A stretch of DNA of 64,000 nt, from the NCBI RefSeq assembly GCF_009908315.1, contig NZ_JAAATW010000002.1:124001-188000 (forward strand). Reading direction: 5' to 3'. The notes beneath the pieces are model-generated. The model was not told where the DNA came from. It saw nothing but the letters and a program-made list of their open reading frames with translations, and did not search any database. This DNA is from Paragemmobacter ruber. Its GTDB lineage: Bacteria > Pseudomonadota > Alphaproteobacteria > Rhodobacterales > Rhodobacteraceae. The position numbers were made by a program, and so were the translations under genes. Below, piece after piece: positions 2,306 through 8,185 of this stretch (position 1 is its first letter; the number at the start of each line of letters is the position of its first letter).

Positions 2306-3079
2306 ATGGCAAACCCCATTCTGACGGCGCGCGGCCTGACCAAGCGTTATGGCAAGGTGACCGCGCTCGACAATTGCGACTTCGATCTCTACCCCGGCGA
2401 AATCCTTGCCGTGATCGGCGACAACGGGGCAGGGAAATCCACGCTGATCAAGGCGCTCTGCGGCGCCGTGGTCCCGGATGACGGCGAGATCCGGCTGGAT
2501 GGCCAGCCGGTCCACTTCACCAACCCGATGCAGGCCCGCGCGGCGGGGATCGAGACGGTCTATCAGAACCTCGCCCTCTCGCCCGCGCTGTCGATTGCCG
2601 ACAACATGTTCATGGGGCGCGAAATCCGCAAACCCGGCATCATGGGCAGCATGTTCCGCATGCTGGATCGCAAGGCCATGGAAAAGGTGGCGCGCGACAA
2701 GCTGAGCGAACTGGGCCTGATGACGATCCAGAACATCGGGCAGGCGGTGGAAACGCTTTCGGGCGGCCAGCGGCAGGGCGTGGCCGTGGCGCGGGCGGCG
2801 GCTTTCGGGTCCAAGGTCGTGATCATGGACGAACCCACCGCCGCGCTGGGCGTGAAGGAAAGCCGCCGCGTGCTGGAACTGATCCTCGACGTCAAGAAGC
2901 GGGGGCTGCCGATCATCCTGATCAGCCACAACATGCCCCATGTGTTCGAGGTGGCCGATCGCATCCACATCCACCGTCTGGGCAAGCGGCTCTGCGTGAT
3001 CGACCCCAAGGACTACACCATGTCCGACGCCGTGGCCTTCATGACCGGGGCCAAGGTGCCGGAACATGTGATCGCCTGA
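2306..3079 (+). CDS. frcA: Sugar ABC transporter ATP-binding protein (FrcA)
   Basis: Cytoplasmic ATPase powering the sugar importer. The start is the ATG at 2306, 257 aa, behind GGGAGGAACAGGAT and 14 bases after the frcC stop. It has one nucleotide-binding domain: Walker A GDNGAGKST near residue 37, signature LSGGQRQGVAVAR near residue 150, Walker B VVIMDEPTAAL and the switch histidine in LISHNMPHVFEVADR. Many monosaccharide importers use a tandem double ATPase of about 500 aa (RbsA type). The single-domain form is the FrcA arrangement and implies a homodimer. Confidence 0.9.
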   Translation: MANPILTARGLTKRYGKVTALDNCDFDLYPGEILAVIGDNGAGKSTLIKALCGAVVPDDGEIRLDGQPVHFTNPMQARAAGIETVYQNLALSPALSIADNMFMGREIRKPGIMGSMFRMLDRKAMEKVARDKLSELGLMTIQNIGQAVETLSGGQRQGVAVARAAAFGSKVVIMDEPTAALGVKESRRVLELILDVKKRGLPIILISHNMPHVFEVADRIHIHRLGKRLCVIDPKDYTMSDAVAFMTGAKVPEHVIA

Positions 3080-3517
3080 AGTCTCCGGTCTGATCCCCGC
3101 GCCGGGGGGGGGTAAGGGGGGGCTGTTGCCCCCCCTTTTTCTTGCAGGCGCCGTCGCGCAGGGCGCAAGGGGGGGGCAACAGCCCCCCCTTGACCCCCCC
3201 ATCACCTCGATGCCCGACCGTAGCGAAGGCGGTGCACTGTCCGCGCGGCGCGGGCCCTTCGTCGCCCGTGCCCCCCTCCAACTCATGGCTTTGCCGTGGC
3301 CGGTCGCGCCTCTCCCGCTCTGACGAACCGCAGGGATCGGCCCCGGCCGCCATAGGGCGCACCCCGTCGAATCGCCTGCCTTATTTCCCTTGCCTTAACC
3401 TTAACGCCCCGAAAGCGCCGCGCGCGTATGCACGCTTGTCTGCACTGGATTGCTGCATACGGCACTGCACAGCCGAAAACGCAAATCGGGGCGAATTAAT
3501 CCAGCGCCCGCAGAGGT
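3080..3517. other. Gene-free region between frcA and the buf locus
   Basis: It holds the frcBCA terminator and a second G/C-run hairpin, CAAGGGGGGG / CCCCCCCTTG between 3166 and 3192, whose core is the reverse complement of the first. An 8-bp perfect inverted repeat, CGTATGCA (3425-3432) and TGCATACG (3454-3461), has centres 29 bp apart. No credible coding frame was seen; the open frames here are by-products of high GC. Confidence 0.6.
3114..3140 (+). terminator. Rho-independent terminator of frcBCA
   Basis: AAGGGGGGGC (3114-3123) pairs with GCCCCCCCTT (3128-3137) around a TGTT loop, and a T run follows directly. It lies 34 bases after the frcA stop. Confidence 0.8.
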
Positions 3518-3955
3518 TTAGCGGTCCAGACCCAGCACCCGGTCCAGCGACACCCGCCCCGGCCCCGCACAGATCAGCGCCAGGAAGCAGGCCGCCCAGA
3601 TCCCATGGGTCTGCCAGGCCCCGGGATAGACGAAAATCTGGATCACGGCGGTCATCCCCAGCAATCCCAGCGCCGAGAGCCGCGTGCACAGGCCCAAGAC
3701 CAGCAGCGCGGGCAGCACATGCTCCGCCACCGTCGCGGCGATGGCGGCCATGTGCGGCGGGATCAGCGGCAGGGCATATTCCTGTTCGAACAGAAACCAC
3801 GTGCTGTCAGCGATCCGCCAGCCGTCCACCTTTGTCTGGCCCGAGGCGAAGAACACCGCCGCAGGAAAGAAGCGCAGCGCCAGCGCTGCCGCATCCCAGG
3901 GCACTCGCCCCAGAATCGTATTCAATTTCAGTATGTTGGCTGTCAGCATCGCCAT
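3518..3955 (-). CDS. DoxX-family membrane protein of the bufferin locus
   Basis: Small inner-membrane protein of 145 aa from the ATG at 3955, four bases after the bufC stop. Four hydrophobic helices are visible. The DoxX pattern is clear: [20 protein letters not shown] near the N terminus, then [21 protein letters not shown] and [17 protein letters not shown]. DoxX proteins commonly end bufferin operons; a redox or membrane role is suspected but not defined. It is the last gene of bufA-bufB-bufC-doxX. An upstream in-frame start at 3976 would overlap bufC and is less likely. Confidence 0.85.
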
Positions 3956-3959
3956 GATC

Positions 3960-4712
3960 CTACCCCTGTTCCGCAATCCCCGTGATGGCCCCGACGCGCA
4001 TCAGAAGCGGCAGCAGGCGCATCGCTGCGCTGCCCTCGGTCCCTGCCGTGGCGGCAAGCAGCGTCGCGCCCCGCAGCAGCGCATCGGCGCAGAGCGCCTC
4101 TTCCTCGGTCAGTGCGATGACCGGTACCTGATCCGCCCTGTCGCGCAGGACCAGCGCCGTCTCGGCCCGGTTGGCTCGCAGATGGCCGCCCGGCCTCTGT
4201 CCCGGCTGGTTCGCCTCCCAGATCGACACCACCGCAAACCGCGACCGAACCATCGCCACCGACGGATGTAGGCGCAGCGCGTGGCGCCCCGGATCGGCTG
4301 CCGCCTGCATCAGCGCCTCTGCGGAGACCGGCCCCGCATCGGCCGCGTGGTAGGCCTGTCCGCGCTGCCATTCAAGCCGCGCGACGTCGGGCAGATAGGC
4401 CAGGGCGGCGGCCGGTTCAAACCGTTCCAGAAACGCCGCAAAGCCTTGTCCCCATTGCGAAAGGCGTGGAGAGGCGGGCGGGTCCTCCTGCAAGTACACC
4501 CGTGCCGTGGCGGCAAAGAAATCGCCACCCACCAGACGCTCGACCACGGGAAAACGGCATGCCAGCGCACGGGTCAGGCTATGTGCCACGTTGTTGCGAT
4601 AGACGGCGAAACGCCGCTCCACTTCATCGGGGTCGTTCGCGAATGCACCCGGGGGCGGGGGGCCGCCAAACAACGCGGCCCGGAAGGCAGTTGTGAAGGT
4701 CGCATGATCCAT
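3960..4712 (-). CDS. bufC: BufC/HvfC-type partner protein (DUF2063, putative DNA-binding domain family)
   Basis: 250 aa from the ATG at 4712, which overlaps the bufB stop as ATGA, so the two are translationally coupled. The N-terminal half carries the DUF2063 pattern: [34 protein letters not shown] and [10 protein letters not shown]. The annotation name 'DNA-binding' is historical. In MNIO clusters this family is the partner that helps the oxidase engage the precursor peptide. The C-terminal half is weakly conserved, with [18 protein letters not shown] near the end. The assignment rests strongly on position beside bufA and bufB. Confidence 0.85.
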
Positions 4713-5548
4713 CACACGGCCTCCGCCGCCTGCGCCATAACCCGCGCTGCGCGCTCTGCCTCGGCCAGCAGGGTGGGGAAATCGGGAACGTCGTTGTCCC
4801 ATTCGATCAGCGTGGGCAAAGGCCCCGCCTGCGCGATCACCCGGGCATAAAGCTGCCACACGGGATCCGCCACCGGGCAGCCGTGATCGTCGATCAGCAA
4901 GGGACCGGATGGCAGGTCTTCGCGGGCATGGCCACCCAGATGCACCTCGCCCACATGATGCAGGGGGATTGATGCAAGCCAGTCCACAGGATCGGTGCGG
5001 TGATTGGTGCAAGAGACGAAGACGTTGTTCACATCCAACAGCAGGCCACAGCCGGTGCGGCCTGCAACCTCGGCCAGAAAGGTGGTCTCGGGCAGGGTGG
5101 ATTGGGCAAAAAGCAGGTAGGTTGACGGGTTTTCCAGCAGCATCCGGCACCCGAGGGTGGATTGCACCTCATCCACATGGTCGCAGACAATCTGCAGGGT
5201 TTCGGGCGTATAGGGCAGGGGCAGCAGGTCGTTCAGATAGTCGCCGCCATGGCTCGACCATGCCAGATGCTCAGAGAAACTGGCCGGTTCGTAGCGGGAG
5301 ATCAGATCGCGCAGGCGGCGCAGATGGCCCTGATCAGGCCGGTCGGGCCCGCCGATGGACAGGCCAACCCCATGCAGGGACAGGGCGTAATCCTGCCGCA
5401 GCGTGGCCAGTTGGCGATGCGGGGGGCCGCCCGCACCCATGTAGTTTTCCGCATGCACCTCCAGAAACCCGAGGGCGGGTCGCGTGGTCCGGATCGCATC
5501 GAAATGTTCGGACTTGAAGCCCAGTCCCGGCGCGCGGGGAAGCGGCAT
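4712..5548 (-). CDS. bufB: MNIO family peptide-modifying oxidase BufB (DUF692)
   Basis: Multinuclear non-heme iron oxidase expected to modify cysteines of the BufA precursor (thiooxazole formation in studied bufferins). The start is the ATG at 5548, 278 aa, behind GGAGAGGA. Metal-ligand motifs of the TIM-barrel family are present: [48 protein letters not shown] and LIEWDNDVP. Length and motifs match the family. The call as BufB rather than another MNIO rests on the adjacent DUF2282 precursor and DUF2063 partner. No inactivating change was seen. Confidence 0.92.
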
Positions 5549-5614
5549 GGTCCTCTCCATCAAGGGGTTACGGGGCGCGCGTGCAAGGCTGTGCAGACGC
5601 GCCCCGCAGCGGGT

Positions 5615-5893
5615 TCAGGATTCGATCGGTTCCAGCGAACCCATTCCGTTGGGCGTCTCAATGGTCATGCAGGTTCCCGCCGGAACCAGCTTCCACGCAT
5701 TGCCCTGGTAGTCGGTGGTTGAGGTGCCGGCGCATGTGGTGCCCGGGCCTGCGGCGCAGTCATTTTCGCCTGCCAGCGCCACGCCATAGCATTTCTCCAT
5801 CGCGTCTTCCGCGACCGAGGCAGTGGCGGCGGCCATGGTCAGCGCAGCGGCCAGCGTGGCGGTCAGGGTGAGGGTTCTGTCAAAGGCTGTCAT
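5615..5893 (-). CDS. bufA: Bufferin-type RiPP precursor BufA (DUF2282)
   Basis: 92-aa secreted precursor. The start is the ATG at 5891-5893, behind ACAGGAAAAACCG. A signal peptide covers about residues 1-28 (cleavage likely after SVA). The mature part has four cysteines at 35, 46, 54 and 75 in the family pattern EKCYG, ENDCA, TCAGTS and VPAGTC. Bufferins are exported and chelate copper or other metals in the periplasm after cysteine modification. It is the first gene of the buf operon, downstream of a SigF-like promoter. Which cysteines are modified and which metal is bound cannot be read from sequence. Confidence 0.9.
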
Positions 5894-5962
5894 CGGTTTT
5901 TCCTGTCTTGGACTTGGGTTTGCTTTCTGTCGTGAGCGGCGTTTCCCGCCTCTCGTTGCGTC

Positions 5963-5990
5963 CATTCGCCCCCGGGGTGAGGGCCGTTAC
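5963..5990 (-). promoter_or_regulatory. Candidate SigF-dependent promoter of bufABC-doxX
   Basis: On the minus strand, GTAACG (5990-5985), 16 bp, then CGAATG (5968-5963). This matches the Caulobacter SigF consensus as I recall it (GTAACC-N16-CGAA). It would start transcription near 5956, about 60 bases before the bufA ATG. Confidence 0.7.
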
Positions 5991-6080
5991 GCCCGATCAC
6001 CCGACGGTGATCACGGGGGCGCGCTTCGCGGATAAAGTGGGGCTCCTGAAACAATTTGCGGGCAAAAGCGGGGTCTTGCT

Positions 6081-6108
6081 GTAACAATTGCCAAGGTCGT
6101 GGCGATAG
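6081..6108 (+). promoter_or_regulatory. Candidate SigF-dependent promoter of sigF-nrsF
   Basis: GTAACA (6081-6086), 16 bp, then CGATAG (6103-6108): the same architecture as the divergent bufA promoter. It implies SigF autoregulation. The predicted start near 6114 leaves only a few bases before the first ATG at 6119. Confidence 0.65.
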
Positions 6109-6118
6109 GACGTACAGG

Positions 6119-6661
6119 ATGATGGACCGCGAAGCCGAATGGTCGGCGCTGCTGCGGGCGGCGATGGAAGGGGACGGGCGCGCCTATGCCCGCTTCCTCG
6201 GCCTTGTCACGCCTGTGCTGCGCGGGATCGTCCGGGCGCGGGGCCGCGATCTGGGCGCGGCAGGGCAGGAGGATGTGGTGCAAGAGGTTCTGATCGCGCT
6301 CCACACCAAGCGCCACACATGGGATCAGACGGCGCCCCTGTTGCCATGGCTCTATGCCGTGGCGCGGCACAAGGTGGTGGATGCGTTCCGGCGGCGGGGT
6401 GGATCGGTCCATCTGCCGATCGACGACTTCGTCGATGTGCTGGAGGCCGAGGCCGAGCCCGATGCGCTGGCCGCGCGCGACAGCGCGGCGCTGATCGGCC
6501 AGCTTGATGCGCGGTCGGCGGCGATTGTCCGGGCGGTCAGCCTGGAAGGGCAGAGCACGGCCGAGGTCGGCGCGCGGCTGTCGATGTCGGAAGGGGCGGT
6601 GCGGGTGGCCCTGCATCGCGCGATCCAGCGGATGGCGCGGCTCGCCAAGGGGGCGGAGTGA
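6119..6661 (+). CDS. sigF: ECF sigma factor, SigF-like
   Basis: RNA polymerase sigma factor of about 180 aa. Two ATGs (6119, 6122) are possible starts, both very close to the predicted transcription start. Region 2 includes EDVVQEVLIALHTKRHTW and WLYAVARHKVVDAFRRRG; region 4 includes VSLEGQSTAEVGARLSMSEGAVRVALHRAIQRM. The gene is followed at once by the membrane anti-sigma factor nrsF and is divergent from the bufferin operon, the arrangement of Caulobacter SigF-NrsF, which responds to metal or redox stress. It probably controls both itself and buf. Confidence 0.88.
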   Translation: MMDREAEWSALLRAAMEGDGRAYARFLGLVTPVLRGIVRARGRDLGAAGQEDVVQEVLIALHTKRHTWDQTAPLLPWLYAVARHKVVDAFRRRGGSVHLPIDDFVDVLEAEAEPDALAARDSAALIGQLDARSAAIVRAVSLEGQSTAEVGARLSMSEGAVRVALHRAIQRMARLAKGAE

Positions 6662-7296
6662 TGAAGACGGAAGATCTGATCAGCATTCTTGCAGCGGATG
6701 CCACGCCGGACGCGCCACTGCGTCCGGGGCAGATCGCCGCGGCAAGTGTTCTGGCGGTGGTCGTGGTCGTGGGTCTGTTTCTGAGCCTGATCGGGGTTCG
6801 CCCTGCCTTGGCGCAGGCCCTGCTGCGCCCCGAGGTGGCGGCCAAGGCGATCCTGCCCCTGCTCACCTGTGTGCTGGTCGCGCCGGTTGCGCTGCGTCAG
6901 CTGCGGCCGGGTGCGGCCGGATTGCCCGCGGCCCGGCTGCTGGTTCCGCTGTCTTTGGCGGTGGGGCTTTGGCTTTGGGCCTTTATGGCGGTGCCGGCGC
7001 CCTTGCGCTTTGCCGAATGGATGCCCTCTGCGGTGGTGGAATGTCTGGGCCTGATCCTGCTTTTGTCGCTGGTGCCGCTTTGGCTGGTGCTGCGGATGAT
7101 GGGGCGGGGGGCAAGCACGGCGCCCGCGCGGGCCGGGGCCTTGGCGGGCCTTGCCGTGGGTTGCGGTGTTGCGGCGGGCTATTCGCTGTTCTGCACCAAG
7201 GACAACCCGATCTTCTACGTCACCTTTTACGGGGCGGCGATCGGGCTTGTGACGGGTCTGGGCGCCATTGCGGGGCGGCGCGTCCTGCGCTGGTGA
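6661..7296 (+). CDS. nrsF: NrsF-type membrane anti-sigma factor (DUF1109)
   Basis: 211 aa from the ATG at 6661, whose first base is the last base of the sigF stop; a GTG at 6658 is an alternative start. About six hydrophobic helices are visible. The C-terminal segment GCGVAAGYSLFCTKDNPIFY fits the DUF1109 pattern of a cysteine followed by (K/E)D(N/S)P before a helix. In Caulobacter NrsF, conserved cysteines are needed to release SigF under stress. Cysteines here lie in LLTCVLVAP, VVECLG, VGCGVAA and LFCTKDN. It is expected to hold SigF at the membrane. Confidence 0.87.
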   Translation: MKTEDLISILAADATPDAPLRPGQIAAASVLAVVVVVGLFLSLIGVRPALAQALLRPEVAAKAILPLLTCVLVAPVALRQLRPGAAGLPAARLLVPLSLAVGLWLWAFMAVPAPLRFAEWMPSAVVECLGLILLLSLVPLWLVLRMMGRGASTAPARAGALAGLAVGCGVAAGYSLFCTKDNPIFYVTFYGAAIGLVTGLGAIAGRRVLRW

Positions 7297-7315
7297 CGGG
7301 CAGGCGGGCGCCGGA

Positions 7316-8185
7316 TCAGAACCACTGGCCGGGTTCCATCAGCCCCAGATCCATCAACTGCTGGGAATGCCACTGAAAGCCGGTGGAATTGTGCCAGTGA
7401 AAGCTCTTGATGTCCCATTTGGATCCGGGATTGGCCTTCAACGCCTTGGCCGTGCGGAAGGAACAGACCGTGGCGGTCAGGTTGTTGTGCCACGGGCAGG
7501 CATAGGTGTTGTATTCCTCGTCGTTGAAGGTGAAGTCCGGGCGCAGGATGAGGCCCTTCTTCGCCTTGAACAGCGAGATTCGGTCGATCTTGCGGCGGTT
7601 GGAGGGGACATGCTCTTCGAACCGCCAGCGAAGACCACCGAAGAAATCCAGCTGCCGCTCTTTCGGGTGCCAGTTGTTTTCGGGATCCTGCCGGGCCAGC
7701 GCGTAATATCCGGATCGGTCGAGATGCGCGTTTTCAAGGCTGACGGCGCTGGGAAAACGGTCCAGATCGCCGGCATAGAGGTCAATCACATAGGTCAGCA
7801 TCGCATCGCGCCGCTCTTCTGCGTGAAAGGCCAGAAGGTCGCGCACCGTGCGTGTTTCGCAAAAGGGGTGGAACAGATATTCGGCGTTGAAGCAGTAATA
7901 GATCCACAGCCCGGGGAAGGCGTCGATCAAGGTGTTGACCGCCGCCATCAGGGCGCCTTCGGCATGCACGTCGTAGGCGATGCGGTGGACCTTGTCCTCC
8001 ATCCCCTTGGGCATCGGGATCGCGTCAGGGGCCAGAAGCAGCACATCGCGGAACCCTGCCTGCAGGTGATGGCGCAGGGTCGTGTCCACCTCCACCGGGT
8101 CCTCGGCCATGATGATGGCCATGGGGCCCTTGGGCGGCGTCCCCGCCGCGGCGCCGATATAGGATGCCAGACTTTGATGCTCCAT
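7316..8185 (-). CDS. Glycosyltransferase family 2-like protein, target unknown
   Basis: 289 aa from the ATG at 8185 (MEHQSLASYIG). The opening segment (PMAIIMAEDPVEVDTTLRHHLQAGFRDVLLLAP) has the look of a GT-A fold, and FPGLWIYYCFNAEYLFHPF follows at the expected distance. A run of aromatic and histidine residues near the end (SFHWHNSTGFQWHSQQ) is distinctive. I recall similar Rhodobacterales proteins annotated as glycosyltransferase family 2. I see no unambiguous DXD motif, so activity is uncertain. The gene converges on nrsF with a 19-base gap and is divergent from miaB. Confidence 0.65.
   Translation of the reverse strand: MEHQSLASYIGAAAGTPPKGPMAIIMAEDPVEVDTTLRHHLQAGFRDVLLLAPDAIPMPKGMEDKVHRIAYDVHAEGALMAAVNTLIDAFPGLWIYYCFNAEYLFHPFCETRTVRDLLAFHAEERRDAMLTYVIDLYAGDLDRFPSAVSLENAHLDRSGYYALARQDPENNWHPKERQLDFFGGLRWRFEEHVPSNRRKIDRISLFKAKKGLILRPDFTFNDEEYNTYACPWHNNLTATVCSFRTAKALKANPGSKWDIKSFHWHNSTGFQWHSQQLMDLGLMEPGQWF

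Follow-up and report, generated by a model that had tools for sequence, protein, structure and literature searches.

SigF-controlled bufferin operons and the promoters of the Paragemmobacter ruber locus

Operons for bufferin-type peptides that stand under the control of a sigma factor, SigF, and its membrane-bound anti-sigma factor, NrsF, have been described in Caulobacter crescentus. A locus of this kind, in which bufA-bufB-bufC-doxX faces sigF-nrsF, is present in a 64,000-nucleotide stretch of the Paragemmobacter ruber genome (NZ_JAAATW010000002.1, positions 124,001 to 188,000; hereafter the window), and its two promoter-type sites are shown below to be conserved together with SigF/NrsF. In C. 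crescentus, the expression of CC3254-57 is SigF-dependent and proceeds from the promoter GTAACC-N16-CGAA, the start of which was determined by rapid amplification of cDNA 5' ends (5'-RACE). NrsF acts as a negative regulator; replacement of C131/C181 raises the regulon and shifts SigF to the soluble fraction. Dichromate and cadmium induce the SigF targets, two tested genes are raised at most twofold by hydrogen peroxide (H2O2), tert-butyl hydroperoxide (tBOOH), paraquat, and diamide, and sigF itself is weakly autoregulated, its promoter staying active without SigF (PMC3511200). Copper induces the SigF regulon in both media tested, and the sigF mutant is copper-sensitive (PMC8224329). Thiooxazoles were reported in Caulobacter bufferin 1 (PMC12452194, PMC13097082), and a survey of MNIO enzymes reports genes for a sigma factor and NrsF within Buf1 clusters (PMC12452194). 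For the RpoE7-EcfR7 locus of Sinorhizobium meliloti, both promoters are listed with GTAAC...CGAA among those located by 5'-RACE or RNA-Seq (PMC6180224). The gig operon of Cupriavidus metallidurans encodes a four-cysteine periplasmic peptide and the metal-binding enzyme-like GigA together with one DUF2063 and one DoxX-like protein, and the neighboring rpoQ depends on RpoD (PMC10304878).

The two divergent gene groups of the window are separated by 225 bp (Table 1). This gap contains two exact GTAAC-N17-CGA sites, each facing its own gene; since only 27 such sites occur in the 3.96-Mb genome (75 for the reversed pattern), about 0.0015 would be expected there. The bufA site agrees with the published target-operon promoter GTAAC-N16-CGAA. 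The transcript starts are predicted at 5956 (bufA) and 6114 (sigF), and the former gives a leader of 63 nt, the mapped leader of Caulobacter CC3254 being 61 nt.

Both divergent promoters were originally predicted to carry the same signature. The sites lie where they were predicted, with the -35 element and spacer intact, and one detail departs from the claim, the -10 element of sigF, which is CGAT and off consensus. Across the 72 sigF sites of the loci compared below, CGAA was found in 44 and CGTA in 27, with CGAT in the window only, and across the 74 bufA sites CGAA was found in 50, CGTA in 14, and CGAC and CGTC in 5 each, both tallies coming from a search that itself required CG[AT]. Because the window element departs from the consensus, the self-activation of sigF in this genome may be weak. 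One may go further and suppose that SigF drives bufA while sigF-nrsF is transcribed from another or a constitutive promoter, so that the loop is not self-amplifying. Such an arrangement is conceivable and somewhat doubtful: the solitary CGAT, the weak autoregulation and SigF-independent promoter activity of sigF in Caulobacter (PMC3511200), and the RpoD dependence of Cupriavidus rpoQ (PMC10304878) point to it. Against it stand the intact -35 element and 16-nt spacer, both in the same register as in the relatives, the site preceding sigF in 57 of 59 divergent loci, and a scan of 3000-7500, limited to the sigma-70 consensus, that gave no promoter of this type. The distance from the -10 CG[AT] to the first possible sigF start had a median of 13 nt in 70 loci (tandem loci excluded), with 13 nt in the window and 58 of the 70 values within 5-20 nt; because this distance is short, the sigF mRNA may be close to leaderless across the group.

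Among the 27 exact sites of the genome, 26 were inspected (L035 gave no row). Besides those of bufA and sigF, 24 remained, 21 of which fall inside open frames of 196 codons or more. The other three (L018, L019, and L025) are weak candidates, named by eye: the next frame after L019 reads like a short-chain dehydrogenase, and a frame reading like a glutathione S-transferase follows L025, the -10 of which is CGAT, at 92 nt. CGWA-type sites numbered 15 (67 in the reversed control), and among these 15, all inspected, that of bufA was the sole convincing one. The description of the locus as self-contained accords with this genome, in which one DUF2282 gene, one NrsF gene, and no other convincing site were found, although the Caulobacter sigma factor drives further targets.

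Conservation of the bufA and sigF sites among relatives

The comparison started from 138 loci, namely the window, 80 named loci collected through their BufB (the top 80 among 549 confirmed), and 57 genome stretches, 21 of them from the genus (places of BufA or NrsF) and 36 from the family (around NrsF). In the family, 46 of 295 genomes were NrsF-positive (G000 and G018 included), and 35 of the other 44 were taken; nine genomes that gave nothing but fragments or matches under the cut-off were left out (G135, G146, G164, G179, G225, G229, G233, G245, and G261). Six loci were set aside, two as true copies (L209 of L083 and L235 of L128) and four (L134, L147, L188, and L216) with neither a scored bufA-bufB nor a scored sigF-nrsF pair. 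The 132 loci kept comprised 59 divergent (including the window), 12 tandem (buf then sigF on the same strand), 2 in another opposed order, 40 buf-only, 18 sigF-nrsF-only, and 1 with neither; having been chosen for BufB or NrsF, they are uninformative on how common the module is. Six loci were counted as buf-only despite pieces of SigF/NrsF (L098, L116, L118, L143, L146, and L186), and L109, a buf-only locus with less than 150 nt upstream, was left out of the counts, which gave 39 scored.

With a site defined by a spacer of 15-16 nt and a CG[AT] -10, bufA was preceded by a site in 54/59 divergent, 9/12 tandem, 2/2 other opposed, and 9/39 buf-only loci. For sigF, the corresponding values were 57/59 divergent, 0/12 tandem, 2/2 other opposed, and 13/18 sigF-only loci. 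Eight altered control patterns reached at most 5/59 (bufA) and 2/59 (sigF) in the divergent loci. The stricter GTAAC-N17-CGA was found before bufA in 36/59 divergent and 8/12 tandem loci and before sigF in 30/59 and 0/12, respectively. The spacer of bufA in the divergent loci was 16 nt in 51 of 59 and 15 nt in 3, while any other length from 12 to 21 nt occurred at most twice. The lack of an own sigF site in the tandem loci is what one would expect were both gene groups transcribed from the bufA site. In the SigF+NrsF tree, the tandem order requires two changes, in groups of nine and three loci, the smaller on long branches. The central claim of the original prediction, that an operon of the bufferin type stands opposite its own SigF-NrsF pair under a shared promoter signature, is supported by this footprint in the 132 loci together with the published systems (PMC3511200, PMC6180224).

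The presence of NrsF was searched for in the whole genomes of 37 named buf-only loci, many of them metagenome assemblies by title; 12 gave a match over the cut-off, 1 below it, and 24 none. The genome with the match below the cut-off (L098), in which the looser site is present, was excluded from the test, and one locus was too short, leaving 23 without NrsF. A bufA site, here without a paired sigF, was present in 6/12 genomes with NrsF vs. 0/23 without it (Fisher p 0.0006, kinship ignored). The strict pattern gave 5/12 vs. 0/23 (p 0.002), and the exclusion of L116, L118, and L146, which hold NrsF pieces in the locus, gave 5/9 vs. 0/23 (p 0.0006).

It is highly probable that the window locus is orthologous to the SigF/NrsF-bufferin module of Caulobacter and acts by the mechanism proposed below. 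Several observations speak against this assignment. The bufA site is missing in 5/59 divergent and 3/12 tandem loci (L086, L179, and L195), the sigF site in 2/59 divergent and 5/18 sigF-only loci, and 6 of the 12 NrsF-holding buf-only genomes have no site. The loci within each group are related, so that the counts are not independent, and the tests are uncorrected for kinship. The window sigF has the deviant -10 described above. In the published systems, Caulobacter sigF mutants are no more sensitive to chromium or cadmium (PMC3511200), the promoter fusions of S. meliloti did not respond to H2O2, cadmium, or chromate (PMC6180224), and for the orthologous Cupriavidus gig operon dependence on RpoQ is undemonstrated in the parts of that report considered here, deletion of rpoQ having raised gig in metal-treated cells (PMC10304878). 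As for the window sequence taken alone, a one-mismatch scan remained at the chance level (24 sites vs. an expected 19.6, a count reached by 20 of 100 shuffles). This result and the 27 exact sites of the genome would suit a chance origin of the matching sites, with neighbors unrelated in control, which we regard as extremely improbable given the two sites found in a gap where about 0.0015 are expected, the retention of the site through rearrangement, and its absence in the 23 genomes without NrsF.

Further features of the relatives were noted. Two bufA genes stand in a row before bufB in L096, L097, L100, L103, L108, L111, L123, L126, and L121. In L186 (G006:C3, about 2377-3185, partial) and L146 (about 3679-4640), nrsF is divergent to bufA with no sigF found in between; these loci retain the bufA site, and additional NrsF genes occur elsewhere in the two genomes. 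In PLSDB, a BufB relative is encoded on 351 of 72,556 plasmid records, those of Escherichia (73), Klebsiella (18), and Salmonella (8) among them.

Predicted gene products and proposed mechanism

Table 1. Genes and SigF-type promoter sites of the locus (positions in the window; roles predicted from sequence).
Feature	Position	Strand	Description
doxX	3518..3955	-	small membrane protein; Pfam DoxX 65.6 bits, E 6.6e-18
bufC	3957..4712	-	DUF2063 partner protein; Pfam DUF2063 79.9 bits, E 1.7e-22
bufB	4712..5548	-	MNIO maturase; Pfam MbnB_TglH_ChrH 349.4 bits, E 1.4e-104
bufA	5615..5893	-	DUF2282 precursor, 92 aa, four Cys; Pfam DUF2282 92.2 bits, E 2e-26
bufA promoter	5963..5990	-	GTAACG-N16-CGAATG; -35 5990-5985, -10 5968-5963; Caulobacter motif match
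sigF promoter	6081..6108	+	GTAACA-N16-CGATAG; deviant -10 CGAT (6103-6108); -35 and spacer intact
sigF	6119..6661 (ATG at 6119 or 6122)	+	ECF16/SigF-kind sigma factor; Pfam Sigma70_r2 37.1, r4_2 34.9 bits
nrsF	6661..7296	+	membrane anti-sigma factor, Cys128 and Cys178; Pfam NrsF 119.5 bits, E 2.3e-34

The content and order of the six genes were confirmed as originally claimed, each Pfam match exceeding its gathering score. Among the NCBIfam models, BufB passed MNIO_BufB (379, cut-off 310) and SigF passed NF009165 (208.6, cut-off 198); the matches of BufC to HvfC, DoxX to HvfX, and NrsF to AntiSigF_NrsF stayed under the cut-off, and that of BufA to BufA2 was weak. For NrsF, the equivalog score was 49 with a cut-off of 300, and the Pfam NrsF cut-off was passed. 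A sequence search matched BufB to the solved MNIO chains 3bww and MbnB 7dz9, while BufC matched no solved chain at E 0.001; the closest named BufB among the matches listed were those of Gemmobacter and Rubellimicrobium, with 75-76% identity, which suggests a host within or close to the Rhodobacteraceae/Paracoccaceae. The four cysteine columns of BufA were each occupied by Cys in 122/122 aligned rows, and its N-terminus looks signal-peptide-like by eye. The locus has the gene composition of a Buf1 cluster, a four-Cys DUF2282 precursor with MNIO and DUF2063 genes adjoining on the same strand, and that of an ECF16 SigF-NrsF module, in which a gene for an extracytoplasmic function (ECF) sigma factor adjoins a DUF1109/NrsF membrane-protein gene. 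In the SigF+NrsF tree, the smallest well-supported set containing the window consists of six divergent loci, the window included, and two sigF-only loci. A strong terminator-like hairpin lies at 3114-3137, behind an apparent sugar-transporter operon that is located upstream of the buf locus, and a second, similar hairpin with G/C runs was seen by eye near 3170-3190.

In NrsF, Cys128 is conserved in 95/96 rows and Cys178 in 88/96, and the other two cysteines in 11 and 6 of 96. The spacing of 50 residues between Cys128 and Cys178 is the same as that of Caulobacter C131/C181, which were matched by spacing, the Caulobacter protein not being in the alignment. In the proposed mechanism, NrsF would hold SigF at the inner membrane until a stress in the periplasm acts on Cys128/Cys178 and SigF is freed; the stress is most likely an excess of copper, or else an oxidant or metal that modifies thiols. 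SigF-RNA polymerase would then transcribe bufABC-doxX from the site at 5990-5963 and, with probably lower activity, the sigF operon itself from that at 6081-6108. Before export, BufB and BufC would turn cysteines of BufA into thiooxazoles, the exported periplasmic peptide would bind copper, and NrsF made in the same response would reset the switch. The sequestration, the signal, the chemistry, and the copper binding are inferred from the named relatives.

It is also from relatives that the responsiveness to metals and redox stress named in the original prediction derives, and these disagree: chromium, cadmium, and copper induce the Caulobacter system, whereas that of S. meliloti did not respond to cadmium, chromate, or H2O2. 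The buf operon could be SigF-driven and answer an oxidative signal, hypochlorous acid (HOCl) or other thiol oxidants, with copper as one trigger only. In Brucella, the ECF16 sigma factor BcrS responds to HOCl, and the operon bcrXQP for methionine-sulfoxide repair is transcribed by it from a TGTAAC / GCGAAA promoter (PMC8315932); among the relatives, L223 has near 4198 (minus strand), divergent to sigF and behind a GTAAC-N15-CGAA site, a gene for a secreted protein like methionine sulfoxide reductase B (MsrB), so named by reading the sequence; and other relatives have a CcdA-thioredoxin pair attached to the module. We nevertheless consider a primarily oxidative signal unlikely, as the two Caulobacter genes tested rise at most twofold with H2O2, tBOOH, paraquat, and diamide (PMC3511200) and the Caulobacter regulon answers copper in both media tested (PMC8224329).

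In 7 of the 12 tandem loci, the stretch between doxX and sigF holds genes for a secreted thioredoxin and a protein of the CcdA type (L086, L179, L183, L194, L195, L217, and L221). One example of each protein was scanned; DsbD_TM was exactly at the Pfam cut-off and Thioredoxin above it. Two close relatives, L180 and L185, carry the pair in divergent orientation to sigF, and a GTAAC-N15-CGA site faces it about 140 nt upstream, reading CGAC and not CGAA in L185. The genus contains 16 close CcdA homologues (E < 1e-50), eight of which lie by coordinates in a buf or sigF locus, one with an internal TAG; in the genome of the window, P. ruber, there is a distant CcdA only (E 6e-5). CcdA-like/thioredoxin genes joined to the module were also seen in L186, L098, and L118, and CcdA alone in L184, its match having one internal TAG. 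The SigF-bufferin module may belong to a broader copper-thiol defence of the periplasm, in which CcdA/thioredoxin keeps the cysteines of bufferin or NrsF reduced and so sets the threshold of the switch; we put this forward tentatively, as a reasonable possibility. A link between CcdA and bufferins was not found in the texts searched, which is no proof of its being unpublished, and the main text of the MNIO survey contains none of the terms thioredoxin, DsbD, CcdA, disulfide, or thiol (PMC12452194). The link is possibly a new lead outside the window and, if true, would point to how the cysteines of the sensor or the peptide stay reduced.

Comparison with the known systems

The system kind, its regulation, and its layout are already in print for Caulobacter and Sinorhizobium. 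The window locus shares with that of Caulobacter the same six gene families, the same motif and spacing, and the two conserved NrsF cysteines (PMC3511200). In contrast, Caulobacter SigF also drives another buf operon and msrPQ, while one DUF2282 gene, one NrsF gene, and a deviant sigF -10 were found in P. ruber (PMC3511200, PMC8224329). In S. meliloti, the ECF16 pair RpoE7-EcfR7 likewise faces a four-gene operon, SMb20530-SMb20527, that includes DUF692 and DUF2063 genes; in the passages of that report considered here, the remaining two genes are assigned to neither DUF2282 nor DoxX (PMC6180224). The gigPABT / rpoQ-rsqA locus of C. metallidurans is similar in having a divergent operon beside a sigma/anti-sigma pair (PMC10304878). 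The BcrS-AbcS (ECF16) system of Brucella melitensis has the same sigma/anti-sigma type and the same promoter consensus and differs in driving methionine-sulfoxide repair under HOCl; DUF692 and DUF2282 are not mentioned in the main text of that work (PMC8315932).

The conservation of the sites over rearranged loci adds comparative support to a regulatory link that, in the parts of the reports drawn on, is shown directly in Caulobacter and S. meliloti and undemonstrated in Cupriavidus. The window locus is an ordinary relative of the published SigF-NrsF copper-buffering peptide module, and this copper-stress module is thereby confirmed as built alike in another alphaproteobacterial lineage.

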